Assembly: GCA_021826685.1 (NCBI GenBank)
Contig: JAKAYT010000014.1
Coordinates: 1 to 32,373, forward strand
DNA from: Thermoplasmata archaeon
GTDB lineage: Archaea; Thermoplasmatota; Thermoplasmata; Lutacidiplasmatales; UBA184
Reading direction: 5' to 3'
DNA: 32,373 bases
The translations under genes were made by a program, and so were the position numbers. Shown here one piece after another: positions 16,812 to 19,871 of the stretch; position 1 is the stretch's first letter; every line of letters begins with the position of its first letter. The notes beneath the pieces were generated by a model, which was not told where the DNA came from, ran no database searches, and worked only from the letters and a program-made list of their open reading frames with translations.

Positions 16812-17249
16812 GTGCCCGAACCCGAGACCTCCGGCGACAGCACCCGTTCCGTCACCGAGCCGGAGCTGACGCATGCGATCGAGCGTACCCTCGTGGTCCA
16901 CGGCCGCATCCCGGCCTCCGAGGCGGCCCCGACCGCGCGGATGGTCCTCGGGTACTTCGGACCGGACGATACCGTGCTCGACAACACGCTCCAGGGCGAG
17001 GACCGGGACCGGTTCTACTGGTTGGAGGACGAGGGCTTGCTCACCAGCCAGGAAGAGGACGCCACCGTCTCCCAAGGACGTAGCTGGCGGATCCACTATT
17101 GGATCCTGCAGAAGGGGCGGATTCGGGAGCTTGCGAAGGAGGCCGAGCGTCGCCCCGCGTCCGGCGAGCCGGCCTCCGCGGTCTACGCCTCGATAGGCGA
17201 TCGCGACTGGCGTCGCGAGGACCGACCGCCCGCGTCGCGGACCGGTTGA
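16812..17249 (+). CDS. Small conserved-looking archaeal protein (DUF6015-like, tentative)
   Basis: About 145 residues, soluble. Residues about 15-100 look like one compact alpha/beta unit: TEPELTHAIERTLVVHGRI, then ARMVLGYFGPDDTVLDNTL, DRDRFYWLEDEGLLTSQEED and SWRIHYWILQKGRI. The helix-rich layout with a short beta hairpin resembles a winged-helix-like domain. From memory it recalls the Thermoplasmata family DUF6015, which I cannot verify. The C-terminal 40 residues are charged and probably flexible. The GTG at 16812 is chosen for its spacing from a TATA-like GCTTTACG; the GTG at 16794 lies too close to that element. It is 72 nt upstream of, and in the same direction as, the coupling-protein-like ATPase, so co-transcription is likely. 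No function can be assigned. Confidence 0.7.
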   Translation: MPEPETSGDSTRSVTEPELTHAIERTLVVHGRIPASEAAPTARMVLGYFGPDDTVLDNTLQGEDRDRFYWLEDEGLLTSQEEDATVSQGRSWRIHYWILQKGRIRELAKEAERRPASGEPASAVYASIGDRDWRREDRPPASRTG

Positions 17250-17321: not shown

Positions 17322-19871
17322 TTGGACGCGAGCGTGGGCGGTGTGGTCCGGGGAATCATTCCCGCCGAGGGACGCCCGGTCGTGGCCGAGCAGTTGGCCC
17401 GGGCGGTGGCGGGGGCCGCTCCCGGCGCCGGCCTCGTTTTCGAACAGCGTGTCGGGGAAACGGACATACGGGTAACCGCCCGCGCCATCCCGATCGCCGC
17501 GGGGACGCTCCGGCCTCCCGGTTCTCGCGCGGGCCCTTCCTCGTTCACGGAAGGAACCGAGGCGGGCGATGGGCCCGGGAGCGAGCACGGGGTGCTGGTG
17601 CGGGCGCTGCACACCCTCCCAGCATCCCGAGCGGATCTCACCGACTCGGCGATCCCGGCCTTCGCAGCTCCCGCCGGACCGGATCTCCAGGTACGGCTTC
17701 AGACGTTCTGGCTCCCGAGCGGAACCGGATCGGTCGCGGCTGCCCGACGCTACATCCTATCGGACGAGCCGGGTCCTGGAGGAGAGCGGCGCCGGGAGCA
17801 GGCGACCGCCCTCGTCGTCGACGATTGGGCGGTGCGCTCGCGACGTGCGTGCCGGGCCGAGCGGTGCCGACCCGCCCGCGGGCTCCGCGACTGGCGTGCA
17901 CTGCGCGCGCGCAGCCTGCCCCGCGACGCGTGGTTCGAGCTGCCCGTGCCGCTGGCCGCTCGAACGATCGACGGTCCTCGATCCCCGCAACCGCCCGCCT
18001 CGCTCGTGGACCTCCCGGCGCATCTCGCGGTCTTTGGGGCGACGGGTTCCGGAAAGACCTCCTGCCTCATCGAGATCGGGGCCGAAGCGATCCGGCGGGG
18101 GACCACCGTTGTCACCCTAGATCTTCACGGAGACCTCGCGCCGGGGATCGTCGCCCGCACTCCGGCCGCGCTTCGGGACCGGATCCTCGCGATCGACGCG
18201 ACCGTGCGCCCCGTCCCGGGGCTGGACGTCCTAGGGTCGGTCCGCGGGCAGATCGACGATCGCCTCGCCGCCCACGTGGTCGCCTCGCTCAAACGCCTGA
18301 GCCCGGACGGGGAGGAAATCTACTGGGGGTTCCGCCTCGAGCGGATCTTCGATTCGTTCGTGCGCATTGCCCAGGAGGAGGGCGGGTCGCTGGTCGACCT
18401 GGCCGAACTCCTCGCCCGTCCCGAGCGTCGGGAGGTCGCGCGCTGGAACACCCGCCGACCCGAGCTCGCTCACTTCCTCGAGGAGATAGAGCCGGTCGCG
18501 CGCCGGCAGCCCGAGATCCTCTGGGCGGCGGGGGCCCGCCTCTCCAAGATCGTGCTCGTGCCGGCGCTGCGGGAGCTCCTCGCGCCCGAGGTCCCGGCCT
18601 GGTCGTGGGAGGGGGTGCGCTCGGACGGCCGTTCGCTCCTTCTCCGCCTTCCGTTCTCCGAGATCGGCCCCGAGGCCTCCAGCCTCGCCGCGAGCCTCCT
18701 GCTCGGTCGATTGTACCTCGAGATTGCACGGGAGCCCTCCCCTCCGCGGCCGGTCGTCTTCCTCCTGGACGAGGGCCACGCCCTCTCTCCTCGCCTTCTC
18801 ACGGAGGTGCTCACGGAGGGCCGGAAGTTCGGGGTCCGTGCGGTGGTCGCGACGCAGTATCCCGAGCGCCTCGCAAAGGAAGCCGAGGCGGCGGTGGCGG
18901 GATCCGTGGGGACCCTGCTGTGCTTTCGGATCCCGCGCGCGAGCGCGCGGCCGACCGCACGCTGGCTGGGCCGGGATTCGGAGGCCTCCGCCGACGCCTT
19001 GGCCACCCTCCCGACCGGGGCGGCGTGGCGATTCGGCGACCAGTTCGAACCGGTCCTCGTCCCGACGCCGCCCGCGCCCGACGCGGACGTCTGGAAGCGC
19101 TGCGTCGAGATTTGCCTTCCGGGCCCGAGCGAGCGCGACGTCCCGGAGGACGGATCCGCCGGTGGGACCCGGGCCGATCAACGGATCGAATCGCTCCTCC
19201 TGGCGGGCTCCGTCCTCGAGGAGGAGCGACCGGACGGGTTCACCCCGTCCGAGTTGATCGCGCAAGCAAGGTCGAACGGGCCCCTGGGACCGGACATCTC
19301 CGTACTCGCGGTGGCGTGGACCTCCCTGCTGCGCGCCCGATGGGTCGAGCCCGCGGGCGACGGCCGATGGCGGCTGAGCGCGCGGGGGGCCGCCGAGCTC
19401 GGTCAAGGCCGGTCGACCGGCGCAACCCGAGAGACCTCGGAGCACCGAGCCCTCCTTCGGCTCGCGCGACGTCTGCTCGCGCGCCGAGGATGTCTCCTCG
19501 AGATCGTGCGGCAGGGACGATTCGACACGACGCTGCCGGACGGCCGCGTCACGCTCGTCCCGGCCGACCGGGTCGGCACCGCGCCCGTCGAGCGGGCGGC
19601 GGCGCTCGCCGAGGCCGAGCGAACGTGGGCGTGGAGGTTCTTCGGCGGCCGGGACGTGCAGGTCGAAGCCGAGGTGAGCGGGGCGCTGCGCCGCGAGCGG
19701 ATCGAGCGAGGGCTCGCCAAAGCGCGCAAGAATGGCGCGTTCGCGCTGTTCCTCGTCGCCGACGCCGGACGCGCCCGGCGCGTGCGTCGCGTTCTCCGGG
19801 AGAAAGGTCTCGTGCCGGCGCTCGCCCAGGTCTGGACGCTGCGGGGCGCCGCCGCGGTGCGCGACCTATAG
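17322..19871 (+). CDS. VirD4/TraG/HerA-type ATPase with C-terminal PD-(D/E)XK-like domain
   Basis: An 849-residue P-loop ATPase of the FtsK-HerA superfamily. About 230 residues of unrecognised N-terminal sequence precede Walker A (FGATGSGKTS, about 238-247). TLDLHGDLAPGIV and ILAID follow, then GRSLLLRLPFSEIGPEASSL, Walker B VVFLLDEGHAL (Asp483, Glu484), the sensor-like LTEGRKFGVRAVVATQYPER and a strand like FRIP. This order matches conjugative coupling-protein-like ATPases (HGDL, 'DE', 'EGRK', 'TQ'). After about residue 600 comes a winged-helix-like part (GFTPSELIAQA to WRLSARGAAEL). A C-terminal domain has TLPDG (Asp740) and QVEAEVSG (Glu782, Glu784), reminiscent of a degraded PD-(D/E)XK core. 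No predicted transmembrane helices are obvious. The TTG at 17322 is the first possible start after the upstream stop; GTGs at 17334, 17343 and 17346 are alternatives. DNA translocation or unwinding is inferred. Confidence 0.85.
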   Translation: MDASVGGVVRGIIPAEGRPVVAEQLARAVAGAAPGAGLVFEQRVGETDIRVTARAIPIAAGTLRPPGSRAGPSSFTEGTEAGDGPGSEHGVLVRALHTLPASRADLTDSAIPAFAAPAGPDLQVRLQTFWLPSGTGSVAAARRYILSDEPGPGGERRREQATALVVDDWAVRSRRACRAERCRPARGLRDWRALRARSLPRDAWFELPVPLAARTIDGPRSPQPPASLVDLPAHLAVFGATGSGKTSCLIEIGAEAIRRGTTVVTLDLHGDLAPGIVARTPAALRDRILAIDATVRPVPGLDVLGSVRGQIDDRLAAHVVASLKRLSPDGEEIYWGFRLERIFDSFVRIAQEEGGSLVDLAELLARPERREVARWNTRRPELAHFLEEIEPVARRQPEILWAAGARLSKIVLVPALRELLAPEVPAWSWEGVRSDGRSLLLRLPFSEIGPEASSLAASLLLGRLYLEIAREPSPPRPVVFLLDEGHALSPRLLTEVLTEGRKFGVRAVVATQYPERLAKEAEAAVAGSVGTLLCFRIPRASARPTARWLGRDSEASADALATLPTGAAWRFGDQFEPVLVPTPPAPDADVWKRCVEICLPGPSERDVPEDGSAGGTRADQRIESLLLAGSVLEEERPDGFTPSELIAQARSNGPLGPDISVLAVAWTSLLRARWVEPAGDGRWRLSARGAAELGQGRSTGATRETSEHRALLRLARRLLARRGCLLEIVRQGRFDTTLPDGRVTLVPADRVGTAPVERAAALAEAERTWAWRFFGGRDVQVEAEVSGALRRERIERGLAKARKNGAFALFLVADAGRARRVRRVLREKGLVPALAQVWTLRGAAAVRDL

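Follow-up and report, generated by a model that had tools for sequence, protein, structure and literature searches.

We describe here a gene of an acid-soil archaeon that, with about an even chance in our estimate, encodes a chromosomal and vertically kept archaeal coupling ATPase of the VirD4/TraG type, which carries a PD-(D/E)XK-like domain and is likely to process DNA in DNA exchange or recombinational repair. The gene lies in a stretch of 32,373 nucleotides (the window), which constitutes contig C53 of a 1.39 Mb assembly (90% complete). Its relatives in our genome collection come from MAGs of Thermoplasmata, among them UBA184 and the AcS isolates, which belong to the order Lutacidiplasmatales (PMC9287336). 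The architecture also occurs on archaeal plasmids; what is new is that the gene is chromosomal and vertically kept, that its tail is under constraint, that it is tied to ThpR and that it offers a testable connection with conjugation in the absence of a relaxase.

Table 1. Coordinates of the ATPase gene, its domains and motifs, and the neighbouring DUF6015 gene in the window
Feature	Position	Strand	Size or residues	Basis or remark
VirD4/TrwB-type ATPase CDS, type A of the UBA184 family	17322..19871	+	849 aa	chromosomal; winged helix, then PD-(D/E)XK-like domain at the C-terminus
N-terminal soluble alpha/beta domain	17322..18011	+	1-230	AF2 secondary structure, hydropathy, dN/dS 0.37
Walker A	18036..18059	+	239-246	sequence motif
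Helical insertion in the Walker A-to-B interval, matching the all-alpha domain of TrwB	18258..18623	+	313-434	AF2 helices, Foldseek to TrwB
Walker B strand including D483-E484	18753..18773	+	478-484	motif; invariant in 57 sequences
Winged helix	19179..19397	+	620-692	AF2
PD-(D/E)XK-like domain (E704/E707, P739-D740, E782, E784, K800), likely	19419..19838	+	700-839	conservation; hhalign to plasmid TraG tails; EcoRV register, sub-threshold
DUF6015 gene, mere neighbour outside the unit	16812..17249	+		Pfam PF19479

Domain architecture and motor type

The putative start codon of the ATPase reading frame is a TTG, which is shared by the closest relative. Across the genus and the family the orthologous frames are uninterrupted, and comparison with the 93%-identical copy at locus L068 yielded an overall dN/dS ratio of 0.28; these data indicate that the reading frame did not arise by chance and evolves under purifying selection. 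Among the regions, the C-terminal domain had the lowest ratio (0.14) and the linker with the winged helix the highest (0.55); the motor stood at 0.20 and the N-terminal part at 0.37. The tail is thus the most constrained part of the protein. A preliminary description of the gene had listed a Walker A motif, an LHGDL block (residues 268-272), a Walker B motif with Asp-Glu, a EGRKFGVRAVVATQYP block (residues 499-514), a PDG motif (within LPDG, residues 738-741) and an EAE motif (residues 782-784), and all of them were found in their places.

Assignment of the motor to the VirD4 type was corroborated by profile matches, structural modeling and phylogeny. Pfam searches returned TrwB_AAD_bind (1e-8) and DUF87 (2e-6). 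An AF2 model built from an alignment of 57 family sequences reached a mean pLDDT of 84.6 and a pTM of 0.82, and when it was compared with the PDB by Foldseek, TrwB occupied ranks 1 to 28 (E 5e-12 to 2e-10) with HerA below. In a maximum-likelihood tree the window protein was separated from the VirB4 clade (support 94/95 with HerA included, 98/95 without), with the branching order among the VirD4-type groups and HerA unsettled. TrwB of plasmid R388 is thus the closest structural match to the motor, and both proteins carry an all-alpha insertion. TrwB is membrane-anchored, works together with a relaxase and is not known to carry a nuclease-like tail. In the window protein hydropathy analysis revealed no transmembrane helix or anchor (top 19-residue mean 1.27), which counts against our preferred reading.

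Two minor observations concern the reading frame itself. ARAGORN reported a tRNA-Ala at 17808-17886 within the coding sequence, which is likely a false positive. In an order-level relative (G026, L044:11600-12300) the conserved E-A-E part is out of frame with the rest of the gene, which therefore looks frameshifted or misassembled.

The C-terminal nuclease-like domain

Among the 57 family sequences E704, E707, P739-D740, E782, E784 and K800 are near-invariant, with E707, D740, E782, E784 and K800 each kept in about 88-98%. The preliminary description had seen no catalytic lysine in this region. This statement holds for the canonical lysine position of PD-(D/E)XK enzymes, which is occupied by Glu784 and counts against our preferred reading, but not for the domain as a whole, since a near-invariant Lys800 (55 of 57 sequences) sits on the helix that follows the EAE strand. 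Structure prediction, which had been suggested as a check on this region, gave a divided answer: the order of elements in the AF2 model agrees with an alpha-beta-beta-beta-alpha-beta core, as expected for the PD-(D/E)XK fold, but a Foldseek comparison of the C-terminal model (winged helix plus tail) with the PDB yielded only insignificant methyltransferase alignments and no nuclease at a significant score. The only nucleases matched by this model were a few viral ones, weakly; both outcomes also weigh against our preferred reading.

Searches with the window family alone yielded no Pfam or PDB relatives of the domain. The connection to other proteins was provided by distant ATPases of other Thermoplasmatota, for which the E-x-E half was matched and which carry the full tail (GGELHRALLFK..., EQPDM..., IAVEVETS..., N-Y-E-K). 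When one of them was used as query, TraG-like proteins of Sulfolobus plasmids were retrieved over 91-95% of the query length. A PD...E-x-E[ST] tail following the motor was found in the proteins of pARN3, pTC, pNOB8, pING1 and pYN01, in one protein of a Thermococcus nautili plasmid and in three proteins of haloarchaeal plasmids. Profile-profile comparison (hhalign) of the window family with these plasmid tails gave a probability of 97% (E 8e-11), with the PD, the E-x-E and the downstream lysine all in register. When the plasmid-tail profile was compared with the PDB, the top match was EcoRV at a sub-threshold E of about 0.1, and in this sub-threshold alignment PD74, D90 and K92 stood opposite the PD, E and E of the plasmid tails. 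CoiA_nuc was matched by two tails (best 0.0026) and an AHJR-like family by one (0.0077), all below the curated cut-offs. Taken together, the near-invariant PD and ExE motifs and the matching plasmid tails bear out the earlier suggestion that a nuclease-like domain is joined to a VirD4-type ATPase in one chain. The domain is likely PD-(D/E)XK-like, and judged from its sequence motifs it may be active as a nuclease.

Genomic neighborhood and relocation of the gene

In the window lineage (the window and loci L068, L069 and L070) the ATPase gene is located between the DUF6015 gene and PrsW. It had been suggested that the ATPase is paired with this small upstream gene. However, DUF6015 occurs throughout the class, and in 8/8 congener loci fetched for this site DUF6015 stands beside Pus10 without the ATPase. 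PrsW follows DUF6015 directly in six of these eight; the remaining two (L185, L189) lack PrsW and continue directly with the gene that comes after it in the window. DUF6015, which keeps its place in congeners that lack the ATPase, was therefore rejected as a partner. Most searched genomes of the class carry two DUF6015 copies.

At the usual site of the family the gene order is sarcosine-oxidase-like and FAD genes, DUF4147, an HxlR regulator, a small gene, the ATPase and ThpR/LigT, followed by an AlkA-like glycosylase, a PKD surface protein and SHMT. In the window genome this old site (contig C13, about 40-51 kb) has kept HxlR, AlkA, ThpR and SHMT, and the ATPase is gone. Together with the congener loci lacking the ATPase, this shows that the ATPase gene moved in the window lineage and that DUF6015 is a chance neighbor.

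The small gene precedes the ATPase in 36 of 49 testable loci and overlaps the ATPase start by four bases in many of them; it was not found in G000, G004 and G002. The encoded protein had no Pfam match. It comprises about 105-145 aa with the core VRLPLAGPYRP..LYRLPDGR..W.VRLWEVDR (L073-L125, e.g. L085:7672-7992).

We considered whether the direct orthologue came from a virus or a mobile element and rejected this, with no phage match and four weak matches to viral contigs. Similarly, 23 plasmid records matched the ATPase motor only, at about 26% identity or less.

Occurrence in the UBA184 family and co-occurrence with ThpR

Of the 103 UBA184-family genomes (Lutacidiplasmatales, Thermoplasmata), about 80 carry the ATPase, which is nearly universal in this family, mostly single-copy and vertically kept in housekeeping or metabolic surroundings. 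ThpR lies downstream of it in 48 of 53 testable loci. Over the 103 genomes, 76 carry both genes, 4 the ATPase only, 2 ThpR only and 21 neither (Fisher 7e-16; 1e-13 when the ambiguous ATPase calls in G327 and G329 are counted as present), where gene presence was taken from E-value tables, the family genomes are related and not independent and the Fisher tests are uncorrected. For the 36 genomes of higher quality (completeness of 90% or more, contamination of 5% or less) the corresponding numbers were 31, 0, 1 and 4 (p 8e-5). Linked loss accounts for part of this signal. Both genes are also kept where they are unlinked, on separate contigs or tens of kilobases apart (e.g. G000, G010, G139, G322, G355); in G000 ThpR is on C13 and the ATPase on C53. 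In known cases ThpR acts on RNA ends, which leaves its tie to a DNA motor unexplained and counts against our preferred reading. In Deinococcus LigT is part of a radiation-induced cinA-ligT-recA operon (PMC5552922), which offers a parallel, by analogy, for a link of LigT with recombination.

Relation to known DNA-transfer and repair systems

As the preliminary description had stated, the window has no recognizable gene for a relaxase, VirB4, NurA or a pilus. Elsewhere in the family, where a chromosomal VirB4-type operon is found in most genomes, ten loci of ten relatives (L234-L243; G361, G344, G002, G018, G367, G362, G044, G338, G369 and G349) share this operon in conserved form. It encodes a VirB4-like ATPase (NF045971, E 1e-39) together with 7-TM, 2-TM and 1-TM proteins. 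Its members are Flpa, a surface protein of about 600 aa, the small 2-TM, the 7-TM and the 1-TM protein, the VirB4-like ATPase and a 180-aa protein. The membrane parts matched no curated family, and this Thermoplasmata operon resembles a DNA-transfer apparatus of the Ced/Ted type. In G361, G344 and G367 our ATPase gene adjoins it tail to tail. When the entire assembly of the window genome (1,388,183 bases) was searched by tblastn, no VirB4, 7-TM, 2-TM or 1-TM gene of this operon was detected, an absence that could stem from incompleteness of the assembly. In the 36 complete genomes 26 carry both VirB4 and the ATPase, 5 the ATPase only, 4 VirB4 only and 1 neither (Fisher p = 1). From the absence in the window genome and this independent variation it follows that the ATPase belongs with the coupling-type ATPases and is not an obligate coupling protein of the VirB4-type operon.

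The closest counterparts in architecture are the TraG/VirD4-like proteins of pNOB8, pING1, pARN3, pTC and pYN01, in which a VirD4-type motor, a winged helix and a PD...E-x-E[ST] domain follow each other in the same order. The Sulfolobus proteins are plasmid-borne, comprise about 1000 aa and are encoded beside transfer genes, whereas the window gene is chromosomal, encodes 849 aa and comes from an assembled genome without such genes. Because of this identical layout, the earlier statement that the module is not obvious from known operons had to be given up. The preliminary interpretation would have been refuted by homologues that serve as ordinary coupling proteins in complete conjugative elements. 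This applies in part, through the plasmid TraG proteins that share the layout, but the direct orthologues are chromosomal and lie outside such elements. In S. islandicus pM164 depends on TraG both to conjugate and to transfer chromosomal genes (PMC9899855). The plasmids pSOG1/2 are transferred despite lacking a relaxase, and no gene for one was identified in pTC (PMC4390865). The word nuclease is absent from the main texts of these two papers (PMC4390865, PMC9899855), which thus describe no nuclease-like TraG tail there.

HerA-NurA involves a ring motor of the same superfamily paired with a nuclease. There the motor bears a HAS barrel and the nuclease is a separate protein, whereas the window ATPase gave no HAS-barrel match in the Pfam profile search and carries its tail within one chain. 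The window genome has a HerA of its own, as do almost all genomes of the family. NurA (PF09376) was found in 0/61 UBA184-family genomes with positive controls. Since many other Thermoplasmatota also lack NurA, its absence does not single out this family; with HerA kept in almost the whole family, replacement of HerA-NurA by the ATPase was rejected. Beside one HerA-like gene (L202:5370-6818) no NurA, Mre11 or Rad50 was recognized. CedB and CedD of the crenarchaeal Ced DNA import system are DNA-exchange ATPases of the same superfamily, and the window ATPase matched the CedD profile weakly (2.9e-8). According to the excerpt of the source (PMC11868833), they differ from our protein by VirB4-like N-terminal domains and TM helices, and no nuclease-like tail is described in that excerpt.

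Alternative explanations

In the family's chromosomal VirB4-type DNA-transfer apparatus, the ATPase might act as coupling protein (VirD4). Conservation of that operon in ten loci, its adjacency in three genomes and the grouping of the ATPase with VirD4 rather than VirB4 are consistent with this function, but its genes were not detected in the assembled window genome and VirB4 does not co-vary with the ATPase, so that we regard this explanation as unlikely. Antiviral defense by an ATPase-nuclease akin to the HerA-nuclease systems appears quite improbable to us. The PADLOC mad8 profile matched the ATPase core (1.5e-16), weak matches were obtained with several HerA defense profiles, and the gene evolves faster than its surroundings (61% identity to the G004 copy vs 78-95% for most neighbors). 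However, the mad8 match is limited to the generic motor, none of its partner set (MADS) was recognized among the annotated neighbors, no other defense genes were recognized in the surroundings, and a near-universal, mostly single-copy, vertical gene in housekeeping or metabolic surroundings speaks against defense.

With similarly small probability, the C-terminal domain has a nuclease fold without catalytic activity that only grips DNA or a partner. Glu784 in place of the canonical lysine and the lack of a clear nuclease match of the C-terminal model in Foldseek point in this direction. On the other hand, the candidate catalytic residues are kept in most sequences within the tail that has the lowest dN/dS, and BamHI is active with a glutamate at the canonical lysine position.

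Proposed mechanism and implications

Under our preferred reading of a coupling ATPase that processes DNA, we infer that six subunits would form a ring that pumps DNA at the expense of ATP. The winged helix and the N-terminal domain might select or hold the substrate, and the PD-(D/E)XK-like domain (D740, E782, E784 and perhaps K800) would nick or trim the DNA entering or leaving the ring. ThpR/LigT, a 2H phosphoesterase, would be the functional partner, and the pathway may be DNA exchange or recombinational repair.

Transfer in the absence of a recognizable relaxase occurs in some conjugative plasmids of Sulfolobus. A nuclease-like domain on a coupling ATPase, common to these plasmids and a conserved chromosomal gene, is a concrete candidate for making the strand in archaeal DNA exchange, and the tail may thus help to explain how DNA is prepared for transfer in archaea. 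A more general idea, which we put forward as rather doubtful, is that archaeal VirD4-type ATPases on plasmids and chromosomes make the transferred or processed strand with their own PD-(D/E)XK domain; this domain would stand in for the relaxase that was not found in several Sulfolobus conjugative plasmids (e.g. pTC and pSOG1/2, PMC4390865), and the window gene would be the chromosomal relaxase-free version. The co-occurrence with ThpR/LigT suggests a possible genetic partner for this widespread 2H phosphoesterase.

A further paralogue of the VirD4 type (type B; L040, L041, L043, L046) of about 800 aa without the nuclease-like tail was also observed. It occupies a separate chromosomal locus, which in several genomes lies beside fibrillarin and Nop genes.
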